A stretch of DNA of 8,014 nucleotides from Desulfobacterales bacterium. Its GTDB lineage: Bacteria; Desulfobacterota; Desulfobacteria; Desulfobacterales; Desulfobacteraceae. The notes beneath the pieces were generated by a model. That model was not told the DNA's origin and ran no database searches. It was given only the letters and a program-made list of their open reading frames with translations. The stretch covers positions 1 through 8,014 of the forward strand of contig JAKSAU010000725.1 of the NCBI GenBank assembly GCA_022361535.1, read 5' to 3'. Made by a program: the position numbers and the translations under genes. Below, in pieces: positions 1 through 7,633 of this stretch. Numbering within the stretch: the stretch's first letter is position 1; the number at the start of each line of letters is the position of its first letter.

Positions 1-825
1 ACATTGAAGGAATTCATTAACTATAAGGCCCTGGTCAGGACCAACAGGCAAGCCGGATGCTTTAAATATCGTGTTAGGAATTACACCCAATGCCATAAAA
101 GTAAAATCGGTTGGGAACTCCTCCCCTGATTCCATCACAATTCGTTGCTGTTCCACACGGCTTACATAACCGGTCTCCACGATGTCTATGCCGCGACGAG
201 ACAAAATTGACCGTACTCTATTTTTAACCCCGGGTTCAAACCGTGCCATGAACCCGTTACCACCAAATATCCGGATCACAGGCAGATGCCCTCCGGTTTT
301 TCGTGCCAGTTGCCAGACATTTCCGGCCACTTCAGCCGCAGATGGTCCGCCGCCCACCACAGAAACTACAGCAGATTTTTCCTTAAACAAATCCTGGAGA
401 CGCCGTGAGGCTTCCATGAGTTTTTCAATGGGTTTTACCGGGTATACATTATCCGGTTCATCTTCTTTCGCCGCTTTTGACAGTGTATCCAAAGGGACAT
501 ATGAACCTGCATTAAATGAAAGCACATCATAGTCAAAGGCATTACCTGACTCAGTAAAGACCTGCCGCTGGTCTGGATCTATTTTTACCACCCGGTCCTT
601 AATAAACACCCCGCCCTGGGAGGTAACCACCTTTTGGGTAGCAAACCGAATATCATCAGGTGCATATGTAGTACCGAGCATACCCGGCCCCATGCCCGAA
701 TAATAGTGGTAAAAAGAAGGGGCAATCACAGTAACCTTAACCCCTTTATCCGTAAACTTTCGGATGTTTTCCAAAGTGACCATATGGGCATGTCCGCCAC
801 CAACCAGAACCAGATGTTTCCTCAT
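1..825 (-). CDS. FAD/NAD(P)-dependent oxidoreductase, SelD-associated type, C-terminus cut by window edge
   Basis: Minus-strand reading frame, open for 275 codons from the ATG at 825 to the window edge, so the C-terminus is missing. Residues 5-14 (LVLVGGGHAH) form the N-terminal FAD Rossmann glycine motif. Residues 42-50 (YSGMGPGML) match the 'YSGMLPG' signature known from FAD oxidoreductases that occur fused N-terminally to selenophosphate synthetase SelD and as stand-alone relatives. A second dinucleotide motif, VVGGGPSAAEVAG, lies at 156-168 and should bind NAD(P)H. ALGVIPNT (245-252) resembles the conserved late segment of NDH-2/SQR-like enzymes. The start is supported by AGGAGAT about 6 nt upstream. 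The gene begins only 14 bp after the stop of the rhodanese-ferritin selenoprotein, so it is the third gene of that operon. Likely role: a flavin reductase passing NAD(P)H electrons to the rubredoxin or di-iron partner encoded upstream. Family is well supported; substrate is unknown. Fusion to SelD cannot be excluded because the end is not visible. Confidence 0.85.
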   Translation of the reverse strand, partial: MRKHLVLVGGGHAHMVTLENIRKFTDKGVKVTVIAPSFYHYYSGMGPGMLGTTYAPDDIRFATQKVVTSQGGVFIKDRVVKIDPDQRQVFTESGNAFDYDVLSFNAGSYVPLDTLSKAAKEDEPDNVYPVKPIEKLMEASRRLQDLFKEKSAVVSVVGGGPSAAEVAGNVWQLARKTGGHLPVIRIFGGNGFMARFEPGVKNRVRSILSRRGIDIVETGYVSRVEQQRIVMESGEEFPTDFTFMALGVIPNTIFKASGLPVGPDQGLIVNEFLQC

Positions 826-839
826 GGTCTATCTCCTGA

Positions 840-1670
840 TTATAATCCGTCCATCAACCTGCCAAGACTTGCCAGATGTTCTTTTTCCTCGTCTGCTATT
901 TTCAGTATAACCGATTGTGACTCCTGGGACTTCACTTTGCCCGCCACCCGCTGATATAAATCCAGGGCCTGTGCTTCAATAGACATGGCAAGGGACACCA
1001 CATCTACGGCTGATCCCATATCCGGATTAAAAAGATCCAGGTACTCCTGGGTGGTCATGCCCCCTTCCATAGCTGATTTGCCAGCCATGGACGACAAGTC
1101 TTCCAGGGTAGTCTGCGGATGTCCCAACCCCTGGTATGCCTTGACAATGGATTCCTGGTGCTTGATTTCAATACGTGAAAGCTTTTCAAAAAGGGATTTC
1201 ACCTGATTATTTTCAGCTTTTTCAGCCATATCCAGGTAGAAGTCCCGTAGCCCGTCTTCAAGTGAAAACGCAACTTTAAGAACATCTTCCGGGCTGCTGC
1301 CTTCTGTAAACAGATGAACACCCAAATCCTGGGGTCCAACAGCTGTTTCAGCCTGCCATGCCTTTATACCGCCTGAAACATTATATACTTGTTTAAACCC
1401 TTTTCCCGCAAGCATTTGTGCAGCCACCCGGCTGCGTCCGCCAACGGCTCAGTAAACCAGTACAGGCTTTTTACGATCAATTTCCGAAAGACGATCCCCA
1501 AGTTGGGGCAAAGGAATAAGGATTGCACCAGGGATATGGGACTGCTCATATTCCTTAGGCTGCCGGACATCCAGGATAGTTACCTGATCTGTCCCGGATT
1601 CGTCGATGATTGATTTGGTCTTTTTGAAATCAATAGACTTGGCCGGTGTTAAAAACTGCATCCATTTCAT
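840..1670 (-). CDS. Selenocysteine-containing rhodanese / ferritin-like (rubrerythrin-type) fusion protein
   Basis: One 277-codon frame (276 residues) interrupted by a single in-frame TGA at codon 74. Residues about 5-108 are a single rhodanese domain: ILDVRQPKEYEQSHIPGAI at 32-50, then VLVY-U74-AVGGRSR, then GFKQVYNVSGGIKAW at 91-105. Family members have Cys at position 74 (CxxxxR active loop), so the TGA replaces precisely the catalytic Cys. Residues about 125-276 form a four-helix ferritin-like di-iron domain with ligands E138, E168, H171 (RIEIKH), E232, E262 and H265 (EEKEH). Homology continues on both sides of the TGA without a frame change, and a SECIS-like hairpin follows it; both favour Sec insertion over a pseudogene. 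The start ATG has GGGAG about 6 nt upstream and lies 28 bp after the rubredoxin stop. Rhodanese moves sulfane sulfur via a persulfide; rubrerythrin-type domains reduce peroxide. The combined role (peroxide, persulfide or selenide chemistry) is inference. A Cys-containing rhodanese-ferritin architecture is known; the Sec form is the unusual part. Automatic annotation would split this into 1449-1670 and 840-1427. Confidence 0.88.
1420..1435 (-). promoter_or_regulatory. Bacterial SECIS stem-loop within the coding sequence
   Basis: On the mRNA strand GCAGCC, loop GGGU, then GGCUGC form a perfect 6-bp stem (five G-C pairs and one A-U) with a 4-nt loop. The loop begins 19 nt after the UGA, within the spacing typical of bacterial SECIS elements (roughly 16-37 nt). 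It contains a G followed by U, the feature SelB recognises in known cases such as fdhF. A weaker lower helix (UUG with CAA) may extend it below an internal loop. Its codons also encode conserved rhodanese residues, so part of the pairing could be coincidental. Confidence 0.75.
1449..1451 (-). other. UGA codon recoded as selenocysteine (Sec74)
   Basis: The minus-strand TGA stands in the frame of the rhodanese-ferritin gene between VLVY and AVGGRSR. This is the exact position of the invariant catalytic cysteine of rhodanese domains. A stop here would leave 73 residues of rhodanese with no active site and an orphan C-terminal fragment with no good ATG or ribosome binding site; the only nearby alternative start is a GTG at codon 82. 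Confidence 0.88.
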
Positions 1671-1698: not shown

Positions 1699-1878
1699 TT
1701 ATCCCATAGGTTTAAAACTTTTGGGGCTGGCACCGCAAACCGGACAACGCCATTCTTTTGGAAGTTCTTCAAACTTTGTACCTTTTTTAACCTTGCCTCT
1801 ACGGTCTCCTCTAGCGGGGTCATAAATACAGCCGCAATTGGCAACCTGGCACTGGCGCATATCCTTGGGATCTGACAT
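1699..1878 (-). CDS. Rubredoxin with a Cx4C first knuckle
   Basis: A 59-residue rubredoxin: a one-iron Fe(Cys)4 electron carrier, cytoplasmic. Conserved features are IYDPARGD at 18-25, GTKFEELPKEWRCPVCGA at 33-50 and the SFKP tail. Second-knuckle ligands are C45 and C48. The first knuckle is odd: the usual C-x2-C-G-Y is replaced by C10-QVAN-C15-G-C17, giving a four-residue spacing and a cysteine where Tyr is normal. The start at 1878 is chosen because AAGGAGG lies about 6 nt upstream; the same frame extends to 1929 without a comparable ribosome binding site and with a non-rubredoxin N-terminus. It is the first gene of the operon with the Sec rhodanese-ferritin protein and the FAD oxidoreductase, so its likely job is to carry electrons from the reductase to the di-iron centre (inference from order and families). 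Confidence 0.93.
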   Translation of the reverse strand: MSDPKDMRQCQVANCGCIYDPARGDRRGKVKKGTKFEELPKEWRCPVCGASPKSFKPMG

Positions 1879-2028: not shown

Positions 2029-2036
2029 CTATTCAA
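2019..2036 (-). repeat. Perfect 9-bp tandem repeat TTGAATAGC x2
   Basis: On the minus strand TTGAATAGC is repeated twice without spacer, covering the stop codon of the SagB-like gene. Further TTGAATA copies follow downstream at 1997-1991 and 1955-1949. It could be part of an operator array for the rubredoxin operon or a chance duplication in AT-rich DNA. Confidence 0.5.
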
Positions 2037-3555
2037 TTTTCGTACCGGCTTTCAAAGGGCCGGCTGAGACGGCGTAGACCAAAGCACTATGGGCTCTAAG
2101 ATTCAACAATTCTTTGGCCTCCATATCGTAGATTGCCCCAATACCGCAACACCCGAACCCTAAATGTTCGGCACCAAGGTAAATTTGGTGAGCCAGCCTT
2201 CCTGCACCAGTCATCATATATCGATAGCCCCTACTGCCAAATTGGTCTTCCAGTTCCTTTAAATCAGATAAAAACAAAAAAGTCATGGCGGCCCTGGCGA
2301 TCCAGGCCTGATCCAGGCAAACCTTAGCAAGATCAGAAGCAAGGTTCCCGGAATGTAAAAGAGACGCTTTGGTGAGCGGGGTATTAAACAGGTAGAACCC
2401 ATCATCCAGACCCTCCAGGTTCTGGCATATCATACCCATTCGTAAAAAGCGATCTGCTGAAAATTTATTTTTTTCCCAAATCCCTTGGCGCACCCATGAA
2501 ACCAATTCAAGATACTGGTTCGAGGCCACATGCTCTTTAGCAAAGTTCCGTCTGGACCTGCGGCGAAGAATAAGGTTTTCCAAATCATACCGGGGTTGGT
2601 TTTGGAACATGTTTTTATTAGGAGAAGTATCACCGGAACCGGCATCGGTAATTGTAATGGTATTTAATGCAGGGGAATCAGTTACATGCAGGTCTCCAGG
2701 TAATGAATCTGGCCAAGAAGATTTAATATTGCTGCCTGCCTCATAAGCCTGGATAAGCGTATTGTAATGCTGCATATACTGCAATTCTTGCGACCGGGAT
2801 TCAAACTTGTCAAATTGAGAGTGCGACAGTATTTGTGTGTTGTCTGACATTTCCGGGACACTCTTGTTCCAGCCTGCTGCTACACACGCCAACGGTACTT
2901 CCATTTTATTATCCAAGTTTAAAAGAGCACTAATTTTCGTATCATCAAAATCAAGGTCCATACCATAATCCATCCCGGCAATTTTAAGCGCCAGACCGAT
3001 GTTCTGAATCAAGTGCCCACTGTCAAGAAGTAGATACCGGTATGCCCGTCCTCTGTACTTCCACGCACTGTTATAAAATGCTGCCGTAATAATGAATAAT
3101 AAACCGGGGCTGTTTAAAAAAGGACCGGAGCCTGTTTTTACTAGGATGTGATTTACCGGGTCAAAATAATACAGTCCTGTCTCATGTGTATCTGTCTCCG
3201 GAAAAAGGGAAGGACAAGCTGCCAGGTAAAGATGGCATGGATACAGGCCACCTGCAGAAGGCAAAGACCGTTGAAAAAAACTAATGCCACTTGCTTTTCG
3301 AGCTGCTGTTACACCGTATGCCAGGTAGAGAGCACGGCTGATCACATCAACAATTGATGTATCACGATTTAATTCACTGGAACTGTTGAAAAAATTATAC
3401 GGTTCAGGCAACTGACACTGTTGTCCAATGCCTTTGTCATATTCTTTTACAGGTTTTGGGTAATTGGCAAAATCAAGGAAATGGGCAGATAATTGATTTC
3501 GAATATGGGTATGGGCCCAATGATAAGCTTCAGCAGGGCCATGATCGGTATTCAT
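2029..3555 (-). CDS. SagB/ThcOx-type tandem nitroreductase-fold dehydrogenase
   Basis: A 508-residue protein with two nitroreductase-fold halves. The first (about 65-230) contains RSLPSAGGLYPCHLYL (96-111) and KYRGRAYRYLLLDSGHLIQN (166-185), the classic SagB-type FMN pocket and dimer motif. The second (about 325-500) repeats the plan with LRRRSRRNF (330-338), RGYRYMMTGAGRLAHQIYL (442-460) and HLGFGCCGIGAIYD (464-477). A linker of about 235-320 joins them. Proteins of this family are FMN-dependent; SagB itself oxidises azolines in peptide maturation, but many tandem members sit outside such clusters with unknown substrates. No YcaO cyclodehydratase or precursor peptide gene is visible in this window, so a peptide-modifying role is not supported. 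Start at 3555, with AAGAGG about 9 nt upstream. It lies 84 bp after the zinc-ribbon gene, separated by a hairpin, so it may be transcribed separately. Confidence 0.88.
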   Translation of the reverse strand: MNTDHGPAEAYHWAHTHIRNQLSAHFLDFANYPKPVKEYDKGIGQQCQLPEPYNFFNSSSELNRDTSIVDVISRALYLAYGVTAARKASGISFFQRSLPSAGGLYPCHLYLAACPSLFPETDTHETGLYYFDPVNHILVKTGSGPFLNSPGLLFIITAAFYNSAWKYRGRAYRYLLLDSGHLIQNIGLALKIAGMDYGMDLDFDDTKISALLNLDNKMEVPLACVAAGWNKSVPEMSDNTQILSHSQFDKFESRSQELQYMQHYNTLIQAYEAGSNIKSSWPDSLPGDLHVTDSPALNTITITDAGSGDTSPNKNMFQNQPRYDLENLILRRRSRRNFAKEHVASNQYLELVSWVRQGIWEKNKFSADRFLRMGMICQNLEGLDDGFYLFNTPLTKASLLHSGNLASDLAKVCLDQAWIARAAMTFLFLSDLKELEDQFGSRGYRYMMTGAGRLAHQIYLGAEHLGFGCCGIGAIYDMEAKELLNLRAHSALVYAVSAGPLKAGTKIE

Positions 3556-3639: not shown

Positions 3640-3819
3640 CTATTTTTTATCTTCTTCCTCAACTTCAGCTTCCATGACCATCATGCATTCATGGCATTCC
3701 AGCTCGATATTGGGCACATCACCGTACCTTTCTTTTAATTCTTCCTCTGATAGATGAGAAGTTCCACCGCAACCGCACTGGGGGCAAGATGTTGTGATTC
3801 TATATTTTTTTTCAGCCAT
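3640..3819 (-). CDS. Small zinc-ribbon protein, function unknown
   Basis: 59 residues. C12-P-Q-C15 and C42-H-E-C45 are two CxxC knuckles 26 residues apart, forming a probable zinc ribbon (or rubredoxin-like iron site). An extra cysteine, C17, sits in the Gly-rich CGCGGTSH loop. A helix-like segment LSEEELKERYG lies between the knuckles, and the C-terminus is strongly acidic then basic (EAEVEEEDKK). A strong ribosome binding site, AGGAGGAA, lies just upstream of the ATG. It follows the rubredoxin-like gene by 30 bp, so the two are probably co-transcribed. I do not recognise a named family. Its size and motif suggest metal binding and protein or nucleic-acid interaction; no enzymatic function can be assigned. 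Confidence 0.82.
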   Translation of the reverse strand: MAEKKYRITTSCPQCGCGGTSHLSEEELKERYGDVPNIELECHECMMVMEAEVEEEDKK

Positions 3820-3849: not shown

Positions 3850-4014
3850 TTATTCTTGGCCCGTAATCCTTGGATCATTGGGTTTGCCGGCACAATCCGG
3901 CGTGTAGCAGGAATTGTCCACAAAGGAACAGTCTTTTTTACAAGATGGGCACTGCTCCGGCGGGGTGTCTGCTTCCAGATTATATCCGCATTGGTCACAT
4001 ATCCAACTGGTCAT
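3850..4014 (-). CDS. Rubredoxin-like cysteine-rich small protein
   Basis: 54 residues starting MTSWICDQCGY. Two rubredoxin-type knuckles, C6-D-Q-C9-G-Y and C22-P-S-C25, match the short rubredoxin domain found at the ends of rubrerythrins and in stand-alone forms (CGY...PPEQCPSCK). The second half adds three more cysteines (C29, C36, C41) in the pattern KKDCSFVDNSCYTPDCAG and ends with DPRI. These may form a second metal or disulfide site. The ATG has AGGAG about 8 nt upstream. It heads a probable two-gene unit with the zinc-ribbon gene. Likely function: one-iron electron transfer in the cytoplasm; partners are not known. It is missed by ORF finders with a 60-residue cutoff. Confidence 0.85.
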   Translation of the reverse strand: MTSWICDQCGYNLEADTPPEQCPSCKKDCSFVDNSCYTPDCAGKPNDPRITGQE

Positions 4015-4311: not shown

Positions 4312-4983
4312 ATGAAAAATCAAACCCTCACCATATCCTTGAGTACGGAAGAATCTGTATCTGCAATTCTTTCAAGGCCTGAAGGTCAATGTAAAACAGG
4401 TATTGTTATTGCCCATGGAGCGGCCAATGATATGCACAACCCGCTAATAAAAGCCGTTGCTGAGGGACTTGCTAAAGCCGGAGTTGCATGTCTGCGGTTC
4501 AACTTCCTGTACAGAGAAAAGCAAAAAAAGTCTGTGGATCCGGAACATCGCCTTGTGCTTGCCTGGAAACAGGCCATCAATTGCATGGCAGAAACCTGTA
4601 AACCTGAAAAAATCATTGCAATGGGAAAATCCTTAGGTGCCCGGATTGCGGCCCAGGCCACAGCTGAAAATCAGGTTGCGCCGGACAGATTGATCTTTTT
4701 AGGATACCCCCTTCATGCACCCGGGAAAAAAGACCGTCTCAGGGATGCTCCGCTTTATAAAATCGAGCAACCCATGCTTTTTTTTGAAGGTACCCGTGAT
4801 CCTTTCTGCGATCTGGCATTATTGGACAAAGTTCTAAAAAAAGTCAAAACCCGGACACACCTTGAAATTATTGACAACGGAAATCACTCTTTTGAGTTAC
4901 CTAAGTCCAACCCGCGGCCCCAGGAAGACATTTTTGAGCAGATCATAGCGTATTGCAACCACTGGATAAGAGAAGATATTTAA
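4312..4983 (+). CDS. Alpha/beta hydrolase, Tex30/KANL3-like (dienelactone-hydrolase-like) family
   Basis: 223 residues, a complete small alpha/beta hydrolase. IVIAHGAANDMHNP (31-44) is the oxyanion-hole strand. The nucleophile elbow is G105-K-S107-L-G109 followed by AR, the GKSLGAR form typical of the Tex30/KANL3-like bacterial hydrolases. The acid is D163 (EGTRDPFCD) and the catalytic histidine is H192 (DNGNHSFELPK). No signal peptide is visible, so it is cytoplasmic. The start is backed by GGGGAG about 7 nt upstream. The stop TAA shares its last base with the ATG of the next gene (TAATG), implying translational coupling with the CBS/DUF294 protein. The substrate is unknown; ester or thioester hydrolysis is expected from the family. 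Confidence 0.9.
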   Translation: MKNQTLTISLSTEESVSAILSRPEGQCKTGIVIAHGAANDMHNPLIKAVAEGLAKAGVACLRFNFLYREKQKKSVDPEHRLVLAWKQAINCMAETCKPEKIIAMGKSLGARIAAQATAENQVAPDRLIFLGYPLHAPGKKDRLRDAPLYKIEQPMLFFEGTRDPFCDLALLDKVLKKVKTRTHLEIIDNGNHSFELPKSNPRPQEDIFEQIIAYCNHWIREDI

Positions 4984-6917
4984 TGGAAATAGAACTATTT
5001 GAAATCAGGAACCATCTTTTTTCCCATCCCCCGTTCCGTAACCTTCCCCAAAAAGATATTGATACACTGGTGTATCATGTCCAGATCGCCTATTTTAAGG
5101 CAGGCACAAGTATTCTTGAAAAAGGCCAGGAAAATGAATTTCTTCATGTGATCCGGAAAGGTGCTGTTGAAATATCCAGGAGCAGCGGTGAACTGATGAC
5201 CCGTATGGGAGAAGGGGAATGCTTTGGGCAGTTTGCCCTGTTGCGTAAAAAAAAGGTACGGTATCCGGCCAAGGCAATAGAAGATACACTGATTTACCTG
5301 ATACCGGACGAGCAATTCCAAGCCCTTTGCGACAAGTTTGACAGGTTTGCAGACTTCATGGAAGAAGACCATGGTGCCCGGCTTCAAACAGCTTTAGATC
5401 ATTCAGGCCATTCAGACCAATCGGGGCAAAACGGCCAAGCAAACCAGGCCGGAAGAAACCCATTAATGTTCTCAAAACTATATAAACTTTTGCATGGCAG
5501 GATCATTACAGCCACACCTGACGTCAGCATCCAGGAAGCGGCCAGGATCATGACCGTAAACAAGGTATCCTCCCTGGTATTGACCTCACCCAACGGGGAC
5601 GCGCCTCCTATTGCGGGTTTGATTACAGACAGGGATTTAAGAAAACGGGCCATTGTCAAAGGACTTGATCTATCCGTTCCGGTATCAAAAATCATGTCTA
5701 AAGACATCGTTACCCACCAGGCCCAGGATTTTGCCTTTGAAGCCATGCTGACCATGATGCGGCATAATCTCCATCACCTGCCCATCCTTGACAACGATAC
5801 TCCGGTCGGAGTGATCACTGTTTCGGACTTGATTCAATATGCCTCCCATGGATCGGTATTTATTGTGGGGGATATATTCCGTACAAAAGCCGTGGAAGAA
5901 CTTGTTGCAATGGTCCCTACCATTCGCCAGCTTTTTGTGCAGCTGGTCAATGAAGATGCCAACTCCCATACCATTGGGGCGGCCATGTCACGAATCAGTG
6001 TCAGCATTTCACAGCGACTGCTTCAGCTTGGAGAAAAAGTATTGGGTCCACCGCCCATCCCATATTGCCTCATGGTTTTGGGCTCCATGGCAAGGGATGA
6101 ACTAACCCTTGTCACAGACCAGGACAATGCGTTTGTACTGGATGATGCCTTTGATCCAAAACGCCATGATTCTTACTTCAAAGATCTGGCGCAGTTTTTA
6201 AGCGACGGTCTTGCACAATGCGGTTTTCCTTATTGTACAGGCGATATCATGGCAACAAACACACAATGGCGCCAGCCCTTATCAGTTTGGAAATCTTATT
6301 TTTCAGACTGGATTGATAATCCGGACCCCCAAGCCCTGCTTCATGCCTCAATCTTTTTTGACTTGGAAGGAATTTATGGTGAAACCGGATTTGCAAGTAT
6401 ACTCAAACAACTGATTCGGGATAAGGCAAAAGACAACGGCAGGTTCCTGGCTTGCCTGGCCCGAAACGCCCTTTTGCGAAAGCCGCCCTTAGGTTTTTTC
6501 AGGACCTTTGTTTTGGAGCCGGACGGTGCCCATAAAAATACGTTTAATCTAAAGCGCCGTGGGACTGCCCCGATCAGTGATATTGCCCGGGTCCATGCCT
6601 TGGCGTGCGGTACACTTAAAACTAATTCAGAAAACCGGCTTGCAGTTGTAAAAGAAACAGACATTCTATCCAAGGGTGTGGGAGACGATCTAATGGATGC
6701 CCTTGAATTTATATCCATGGTCCGTATCCGCCACCAGGCAAGGCAGGTAGAAAACAAAATTGAACCGGACAATAATGTTCGACCCTCTGAACTGTCCTCA
6801 TTTGAACGCCGGCATCTTAAAGATGCCTTCCAGGTTGTGTCCCAGGCCCAATCCTTTCTCAAATTCAAGTACAATGCTGCCCTTGACAAACCATCAAAAG
6901 AAAAGAAAGATCAATGA
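4983..6917 (+). CDS. cNMP-binding / twin CBS / DUF294 nucleotidyltransferase-like signalling protein
   Basis: 644 residues. Domains in order: cyclic-nucleotide-binding-like fold (about 12-125, GEGECFGQFALL at 77-88); a polar Ser/Gly/Gln/Asn-rich linker (about 139-158); two CBS motifs (about 165-290, with ITDRDLRKRAI and VGVITVSDLI); a DUF294 putative nucleotidyltransferase (GSMARDE at 367-373 and TDQDN at 378-382, with D379 and D381 as likely metal ligands); and a DUF294 C-terminal helical domain (about 480-625). The architecture matches the family annotated as 'cAMP-binding and CBS domain signal-transduction protein', whose relatives are related to GlnD-type nucleotidyltransferases. In the phosphate cassette the usual Glu of FGE is Gln (FGQ), so cNMP binding may be altered. 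The start at 4983 is preferred because it overlaps the hydrolase stop (TAATG); an in-frame ATG at 4953 lies deep inside that gene without a ribosome binding site. It overlaps the exonuclease by 4 nt. The target of the nucleotidyl transfer is unknown. Confidence 0.92.
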   Translation: MEIELFEIRNHLFSHPPFRNLPQKDIDTLVYHVQIAYFKAGTSILEKGQENEFLHVIRKGAVEISRSSGELMTRMGEGECFGQFALLRKKKVRYPAKAIEDTLIYLIPDEQFQALCDKFDRFADFMEEDHGARLQTALDHSGHSDQSGQNGQANQAGRNPLMFSKLYKLLHGRIITATPDVSIQEAARIMTVNKVSSLVLTSPNGDAPPIAGLITDRDLRKRAIVKGLDLSVPVSKIMSKDIVTHQAQDFAFEAMLTMMRHNLHHLPILDNDTPVGVITVSDLIQYASHGSVFIVGDIFRTKAVEELVAMVPTIRQLFVQLVNEDANSHTIGAAMSRISVSISQRLLQLGEKVLGPPPIPYCLMVLGSMARDELTLVTDQDNAFVLDDAFDPKRHDSYFKDLAQFLSDGLAQCGFPYCTGDIMATNTQWRQPLSVWKSYFSDWIDNPDPQALLHASIFFDLEGIYGETGFASILKQLIRDKAKDNGRFLACLARNALLRKPPLGFFRTFVLEPDGAHKNTFNLKRRGTAPISDIARVHALACGTLKTNSENRLAVVKETDILSKGVGDDLMDALEFISMVRIRHQARQVENKIEPDNNVRPSELSSFERRHLKDAFQVVSQAQSFLKFKYNAALDKPSKEKKDQ

Positions 6918-7633
6918 TCGGGCCATCCAATATCAAACCACCGGATTGGGAAAAAAGGTTTACCAAACTGGCCCAAGAGGCTTCAGACCCAAGGCTAAAG
7001 GATTTTTACCAAGCCTCATGTGTGCCTTTGAGCACCCCGGTTAGCCAAGTCAGGTTCCTGGCCCTGGACCTTGAGACTACCGGGCTGGACATCAAAACAG
7101 ATGCCATTGTCAGCATTGGTTTTGTTCCTATGACATACAACCGGGTCATTTGCCAGGGGGCCAGAAACTGGACGATCAGACCGGAGCAAAGCCCTGAATC
7201 ACCATTGGCGGAGATTCATGGCATCACCCACACCCATCTTGAAACCTCACCCGGTTTCAACGACAGCCTCAGCCACATACTCAAAGCAATGGCCGGCCAC
7301 ATTGTCGTGGCCCATTATTGTGATATTGAAAGAGAATTCCTGGACAAGGCTTGCCGGGAATTCACTGGTGAAACCCTACAATTTCCAGTAGTGGACACCA
7401 TGGAATTGGAATCCAGAAAGCACCCGGTATTCCGTCCCAATGTCTTTCAGAGATGGCTGGGAGATAAACCGAGCCCTTCCCTTCGTCTTTCCCATTCCCG
7501 GGAGCGTTATGGACTGCCAAGGTATACACCACATCATGCTTTGACAGATGCCCTGGCTACAGCCGAACTGCTCATGGCTCAGCTTGCGGACCGCTACCTG
7601 CCCCATACCCCCATTGGAAAACTATGGATATAA
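6914..7633 (+). CDS. DEDDh 3'-5' exonuclease (DnaQ/PolC epsilon-like)
   Basis: 239 residues. Exo I is LDLETTGLD (51-59) with D52 and E54. Exo II is VVAHYCDIEREFL (131-143), where E139 aligns with the usual Asp and D137 is an alternative. Exo III is H207-HALT-D212, the HxxxxD spacing of the DEDDh class. IHGIT (101-105) is the typical middle motif. The fold acts on DNA or RNA 3' ends with two metal ions. An N-terminal extension of about 45 residues precedes the domain. Its ATG overlaps the DUF294 gene stop (ATGA), so the two are translationally coupled. DUF294 proteins and epsilon-like exonucleases are repeatedly found side by side in Proteobacteria, so this is a conserved pair rather than a replication gene. 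The physiological substrate is unknown. Confidence 0.9.
   Translation: MIGPSNIKPPDWEKRFTKLAQEASDPRLKDFYQASCVPLSTPVSQVRFLALDLETTGLDIKTDAIVSIGFVPMTYNRVICQGARNWTIRPEQSPESPLAEIHGITHTHLETSPGFNDSLSHILKAMAGHIVVAHYCDIEREFLDKACREFTGETLQFPVVDTMELESRKHPVFRPNVFQRWLGDKPSPSLRLSHSRERYGLPRYTPHHALTDALATAELLMAQLADRYLPHTPIGKLWI

Follow-up and report, generated by a model that had tools for sequence, protein, structure and literature searches.

Identification of a predicted selenoprotein gene

The minus-strand frame 1670–840 most probably constitutes one selenoprotein gene, with selenocysteine (Sec) predicted at residue 74 of a rhodanese/rubrerythrin-type fusion protein; from the sequence comparisons described below, we assign this reading a probability of about 0.93. 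The frame lies in the window, that is, the whole stretch of 8,014 nucleotides that was analyzed. It spans 277 codons, encoding 276 residues and ending in TAA, and its ATG start at 1670 is preceded by AGGGAG, which resembles a ribosome-binding site. The sole internal stop is a TGA at 1451–1449, codon 74, in the context VLVY-TGA-AVGGRSR. The first-pass annotation had described the frame as intact except for this codon, and translation of 1670–840 confirmed the description. The features of the gene are as follows.

840–1670, minus strand: predicted Sec-containing rhodanese/rubrerythrin-type di-iron fusion protein, 276 residues (homologues and Pfam)
1449–1451, minus strand: in-frame UGA, codon 74, putatively read as Sec, at the rhodanese catalytic position
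1347–1604, minus strand: rhodanese domain, residues 23–108 (Pfam PF00581, E = 2.3e-23; fold matches to rhodaneses)
858–1286, minus strand: rubrerythrin/ferritin-like domain, residues 129–271 (Pfam PF02915, Rubrerythrin, and PF13668, Ferritin_2)
1420–1435, minus strand: putative bacterial SECIS upper stem-loop (arms 1435–1430 and 1425–1420, 6 bp; loop GGGU at 1429–1426)

Open stretches of 45 codons or more flank eight further TGA codons of the window on both sides, so an uninterrupted reading frame around such a codon carries no weight by itself. In the sequence comparisons, the TGA at codon 74 is set apart by the homology that extends across it and by the recurrence of this stop at the identical position in 94 further genes.

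Domain organization and homologues

Pfam domains were found on both sides of the TGA, indicating that the two open halves correspond to one homologous protein. The structure predicted with C at position 74 was a confident model (mean pLDDT 89, pTM 0.86). The active-site loop of rhodaneses begins at the catalytic Cys. The fusion protein has the rhodanese fold with an active-site loop beginning at the catalytic Cys/Sec position, as is characteristic of the rhodanese superfamily, and site 74 was assigned to the catalytic Cys on the basis of this family loop and the fold matches. The second domain is a four-helix domain with the Glu and ExxH ligands of ferritin-like di-iron proteins; E138, E168-x-x-H171, E232, and E262-x-x-H265 were invariant across 77 aligned sequences and are, by analogy, likely to be the di-iron ligands. 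Pfam and NCBIfam detected no rubredoxin-like domain in the fusion chain, which therefore falls outside rubrerythrin proper (NF045767). The two NCBIfam models for rhodanese selenoproteins, NF041203 (45.2 of 115 bits) and NF045694 TsoB (25.3 of 805 bits), both scored below their cut-offs.

A search over about 5.8 billion proteins yielded 3310 homologues, 120 of which were listed; the listed full-length homologues covered 96–100% of the query. Site 74 was Cys in all 118 homologues that spanned it among the 120 listed of 3310, and Cys homologues 66–70% identical to the query were among them. This result bears out the earlier claim that the TGA occupies an invariant active-site Cys. The remaining two listed proteins start downstream of site 74. 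P0010 (191 residues, 5 members) begins 12 residues after the site and is 99% identical to the query, though not letter-identical, and its source may be a related sample. P0095 (195 residues, 3 members, 77% identical) begins 8 residues after the site. These starts, known from protein records, fit the truncation that a gene-calling program would impose on a gene with UGA at this codon, and they agree with the first-pass prediction that automatic annotation would report truncated genes.

Conservation of the UGA codon

Public genomes were scanned with an alignment in which site 74 was masked, to keep copies with UGA from escaping detection, and the codon was then read. Of the 86 genomes from the family to which Desulfospira (G022) belongs, 66 carried the fusion; 51 had one TGA and 15 had none, and the fetched copies of the 51 all read TGA at site 74. 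In a draw of 395 genomes from the phylum, with up to 6 initial candidates scored in each, at least 83 had a match, comprising 31 with one TGA, one with TAG, one with TAA, and 50 with no stop. The TGA was codon 74 in all 31 TGA-bearing genomes (with G022 as L030), and codon 74 was Cys in each of the 9 no-stop genomes, out of 50, in which it was read. The TAG and TAA sit elsewhere, at codons 247 and 4 of Cys genes; the gene with TAG at codon 247 is a Cys-form fusion of genome G240 (L166:1-1350).

After duplicates and two loci below 90 bits (L068 and L074) were dropped, the set comprised 95 distinct genes with TGA at codon 74, the window included, and 30 with TGC or TGT. Every stop at codon 74 was TGA (95/95), with neither TAA nor TAG among them, and some of the proteins with TGA at this site had an identity as low as about 33%. 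The comparison proposed in the first-pass annotation, which looked for Cys at position 74 in most homologues and UGA in some, was thus carried out, with 30 Cys genes and 95 TGA genes fetched. The fusion and its UGA form are widespread in Thermodesulfobacteriota. With 3310 homologues and the UGA form in 51 of the 66 fusion-bearing genomes of one family, the first-pass view of the fusion as a rare combination proved wrong.

A protein tree was built from 122 of the 125 genes with site 74 masked; three rows shorter than 150 residues were left out. On the best tree, a minimum of 14 Sec/Cys changes was required, at least 6 of which were forced by well-supported branches, compared with a mean of 26.1 for shuffled states. 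The gene of the window grouped (support 95) with those of G065 and G066 (77% and 75% identity), both of which have UGA.

Three individual cases were recorded in the course of these comparisons. A UGA form was present in a contig labelled Candidatus Neomarinimicrobiota (L049:4209-5030). The UGA form of Desulfosarcina cetonica JCM 12296 (L064:5001-5821) has an apparent frameshift close to codon 74. Genome G089 carries two copies of the fusion, both with Cys (L118 and L122).

A putative SECIS element downstream of the UGA

A 2026 review (PMC13188914) describes, in its text on the bacterial SECIS model, an upper stem of 4–16 bp, an apical loop of 3–9 nt, a distance of 16–37 nt from the UGA, and a G within the first two bases of the loop. 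The stem-loop of the window, GCAGCC-GGGU-GGCUGC, falls within these limits, with 6 bp, the loop GGGU, and a position 19 nt downstream of the UGA.

Two alternative stems were defined among the relatives. Stem A, counted as five pairs, was complete in 83 of the 95 TGA genes, all 83 of which had a G within the first two positions of the loop, at a UGA-to-loop distance of 18 or 19 nt. Six further genes had a complete stem B, whose pairing is moved by other synonymous codons for Arg-79, Ala-83, and Ala-84, and 6 genes had neither. Stem A or B was therefore complete in 89 of the 95 TGA genes, against 1.27 expected when codons were drawn anew according to codon usage in the genes themselves; stems A and B were both delineated with the sequences already in view, and the sequences are related by descent. 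Among the 30 Cys genes, 9 had a complete stem A or B, against 0.31 expected, and 21 had neither. Most of these 9 adjoin Sec genes on the tree, which is unrooted, or are interspersed with them, and their stems look like remnants. D. widdelii (L052), a relative of D. cetonica, has a Cys form in which stem B is still complete.

Codon choice and folding were compared only among genes with more than 44% identity (65 TGA genes and 19 Cys genes). Codon 83 (Ala) was GCT in 62 of the 65 TGA genes and in 7 of the 19 Cys genes, while GCT made up 14.6% of the other Ala codons in the TGA genes. Ranked by unusual synonymous choice among 186 positions in the TGA genes, codons 80, 83, 79, and 81 came 1st, 2nd, 5th, and 9th, respectively; codon 80 was likewise unusual in the Cys genes (rank 2 of 189), so the signal at this codon is not UGA-specific. 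Folding energy did not separate the two sets (mean z of −0.96 for the 65 TGA genes and −1.33 for the 19 Cys genes), and single-sequence folding of the window gave z values of −0.66 to −1.56. RNAalifold covariation was near zero, the protein sequence leaving little freedom at most paired bases, and likewise did not separate TGA from Cys genes. Neither folding energy nor covariation was accordingly counted as support. An Rfam scan of the window gave three sub-threshold matches only, none of them a SECIS.

Sec machinery in related genomes

The genes for Sec incorporation were searched in 50 of the genomes that hold the best 64 loci (42 with the UGA form and 8 with the Cys form). Matches over the cut-off were obtained for selB in 43, tRNA-Sec in 42, and selA in 47 of the 50 genomes, and for selB in 36, tRNA-Sec in 34, and selA in 40 of the 42 UGA genomes. 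None of the UGA genomes lacked all three, and G006 and G012 were the only ones with just one; such gaps are perhaps due to draft assemblies. In a further selection of 16 genomes, most of them with long contigs (5 UGA and 11 Cys, with G022 and G036 repeated from the first set), selB and tRNA-Sec were present in all. From the phylum draw, 80 genomes with the fusion were searched; selA was present in 78 and selB in 79, and all 29 UGA genomes among them carried both. G389 had neither selA nor selB, and its copy of the fusion has no stop. Since almost every genome with a copy lacking the stop also has this machinery, the machinery does not discriminate UGA from Cys; its presence in most of the carrier genomes searched is consistent with Sec. 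Together, the Cys column, the conserved TGA, the fit to a SECIS, and the Sec machinery in relatives strongly support the reading of codon 74 as Sec that the first-pass annotation had put forward.

Gene neighborhood

From the upstream side, the window contains genes for a mini rubredoxin-like protein, a small CxxC protein, a SagB-type nitroreductase, and a rubredoxin, followed by the fusion and an FAD oxidoreductase. The neighbors are as follows.

3850–4014, minus strand: mini rubredoxin-like (RUBY_RBDX) protein, 54 residues (PF21349)
3640–3819, minus strand: small CxxC (zinc-ribbon-like) protein, 59 residues (from the sequence; no Pfam match)
2029–3555, minus strand: SagB-type nitroreductase-family protein, upstream (TIGR03605 over the cut-off, two matched stretches)
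1699–1878, minus strand: rubredoxin directly upstream of the fusion, probable electron carrier (PF00301, E = 3e-18)
1–825, minus strand: FAD/NAD(P) oxidoreductase directly downstream, cut by the window end (PF07992)

The conservation of these neighbors was counted among loci with enough flanking sequence. The FAD oxidoreductase adjoined the fusion at 55 of 58 TGA loci and 15 of 19 Cys loci. A rubredoxin gene lay within 600 nt upstream at 29 of 57 TGA loci versus 1 of 19 Cys loci. The mini rubredoxin-like protein (33/51), the small CxxC protein (27/51), and the SagB-type nitroreductase (17/51) were each found at TGA loci and at 0 of 18 Cys loci. Further neighbors were a downstream fusion of a VTT domain with an FAD disulfide reductase (27 of 46 UGA loci and 1 of 19 Cys loci) and a nearby rubrerythrin match (21 of 42 and 1 of 19, respectively). 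In a near relative, the VTT protein (L123:1663-3810) has 715 residues and combines a VTT membrane domain with an FAD disulfide reductase similar to MerA and lipoamide dehydrogenase. A link between the larger neighborhood and Sec was considered and set aside, as it is confounded by kinship; well-supported branches offer only 4–5 independent pairs, with which no test can reach 0.05.

The FAD oxidoreductase comprises about 370 stop-free codons in most relatives. At L057 and L063, a TGA comes straight after a partial match to this protein and was taken as a frame fault. Elsewhere in the window, 4981–7633 holds an ordinary gene pair, in which a cyclic-nucleotide-binding/CBS/DUF294 nucleotidyltransferase gene shares an ATGA overlap with a 3′-5′ exonuclease gene. 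In the plasmid collection, no place covered 80% of the fusion, and all 591 records had less than 60% identity.

Proposed function and alternative explanations

In the proposed mechanism, SelB would carry Sec-tRNA(Sec) to UGA-74, directed by the SECIS stem-loop located in the coding region just downstream. Sec would take the place of the catalytic cysteine in the rhodanese domain, and translation would continue through the rubrerythrin-type di-iron domain. The neighboring FAD oxidoreductase, of the NAD(P)H type, may then supply electrons that reach the di-iron domain by way of rubredoxin, and sulfane sulfur, from persulfide or thiosulfate, may be taken up by the Sec-rhodanese as a selenosulfide. 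A change of persulfide chemistry next to a di-iron centre, as suggested in the first-pass annotation, may also result. Solved structures show rhodanese domains joined to persulfide reductases and to a persulfide dioxygenase, and the rubredoxin and rubrerythrin neighbors point to defense against peroxide or oxygen. We tentatively propose, with a chance that we put below even, that this electron route and the selenosulfide would serve to reduce persulfide, peroxide, or both in strict anaerobes exposed to oxygen. A more doubtful extension is that the di-iron centre, with rubredoxin and the FAD oxidoreductase feeding it, would reduce or oxidize the selenosulfide (or perselenide) that the Sec-rhodanese forms on the same polypeptide. 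If this were true, the protein would be a two-site Se-dependent enzyme of a kind not yet described, dedicated to persulfide/peroxide stress in sulfate reducers.

The protein might instead be a selenoprotein for sulfur or selenium transfer, for example of perselenide to SelD, rather than for persulfide/peroxide reduction. Rhodaneses can carry selenium, and the best NCBIfam match of the adjacent FAD oxidoreductase was TIGR03169 (Nterm_to_SelD), a domain N-terminal to SelD. However, a full-length relative of this oxidoreductase reached 234.2 bits against a cut-off of 310, and the neighbors that were counted are rubredoxin-type and rubrerythrin genes. We consider a transfer function rather unlikely.

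Far less probable is that UGA-74 is a true stop and that GTG 1427 or ATG 1415 starts a free di-iron protein, split from an old fusion. P0010 and P0095 have exactly such starts, and codon 86 is ATG in 60 of the 65 TGA genes; yet it is also ATG in 14 of the 19 Cys genes, where it is internal. A split would also make the rhodanese half end right before its catalytic position, although the flanking residues are conserved in the TGA genes, would not account for the exclusive use of TGA over TAA and TAG at this codon, and would leave the conserved stem without a reason.

A nonsense mutation in a decaying gene, or a sequencing error by which the Cys codon TGC or TGT was miscalled as TGA, would require only a single-base change, and Cys homologues exist at the identities given above. 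The finding of TGA at this position in 94 additional genes, whose proteins are widely divergent, makes a sequencing error unlikely, and the lack of any other stop in the frame and the maintenance of the stem-loop by synonymous choice likewise argue against decay, leaving this explanation with a very small probability. Decoding of the UGA as Trp or Cys, by a near-cognate tRNA or a changed code, would also open the frame, but it is highly improbable, since the window gene that terminates at 6917 uses UGA as its ordinary stop, which speaks against general reassignment, and UGA ends the FAD oxidoreductase at its usual length in several relatives (for example, L012, L018, L042, and L058), while relatives possess selA, selB, and tRNA-Sec and the stem-loop matches a SECIS.

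Relationship to known systems and significance

The predicted selenoprotein was compared with systems described in the literature. The 2026 review catalogs, in its main text, five forms of rhodanese-like selenoproteins, forms 2 and 4 of which belong to PF00581 with the motif UxxG (PMC13188914). Rhodanese-like or sulfurtransferase selenoproteins also appear in the text of a 2022 review, the GOS survey, and a study of marine deltaproteobacterial MAGs (PMC9312934, PMC2398784, and PMC8318568, respectively). This catalog and these surveys bear out the earlier statement that rhodanese-like selenoproteins have been predicted in bacteria. The cataloged proteins share with the fusion a Sec in a rhodanese-like domain, and UxxG also fits its UAVG; they differ in that the entries name no rubrerythrin or ferritin domain, neither word occurring in the main text (PMC13188914). 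An entry of form 2 or 4 could nevertheless cover the fusion already. A rhodanese-rubrerythrin fusion described as a selenoprotein was not found in the main-text passages, titles, and abstract openings covered by the literature search. For D. autotrophicum HRM2, at least 31 selenoproteins are given in the text of PMC2702500.

Among the closest known proteins are the Cys-containing fusions that bear the JGI name "rhodanese-related sulfurtransferase/rubrerythrin". These have the same two domains, length, and flanking motif, but carry a Cys codon in place of UGA, and 21 of the 30 Cys genes read contain neither stem. The combination of a rhodanese with a sulfane-sulfur redox enzyme is shared by the NAD(P)H persulfide reductases, namely CoADR-RHD (3icr) and the enzymes of Shewanella (3nta) and A. 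fulgidus (6pfz), and by the persulfide dioxygenase-rhodanese (5ve3). However, the partner domain is a flavoprotein in the reductases and a mononuclear iron enzyme in 5ve3, not a di-iron four-helix bundle, and the rhodanese has Cys, not Sec, throughout. The fusion resembles rubrerythrin in its ferritin-like di-iron domain and has a rubredoxin gene next door, but it lacks the fused rubredoxin domain of rubrerythrin and has an N-terminal rhodanese domain instead.

In current annotation, the family appears as two pieces, a stub of 73 residues and a ferritin-like protein without its N-terminal part, which together are probably one intact selenoenzyme in many sulfate-reducing bacteria. Its recognition would add an architecture, a Sec-rhodanese with a di-iron partner, to the selenoproteome, and would link selenium to a stress locus of the rubredoxin/rubrerythrin type. 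The repeated exchange of Sec and Cys within one family, with the Sec machinery kept, would provide natural pairs for learning what selenium buys a rhodanese.
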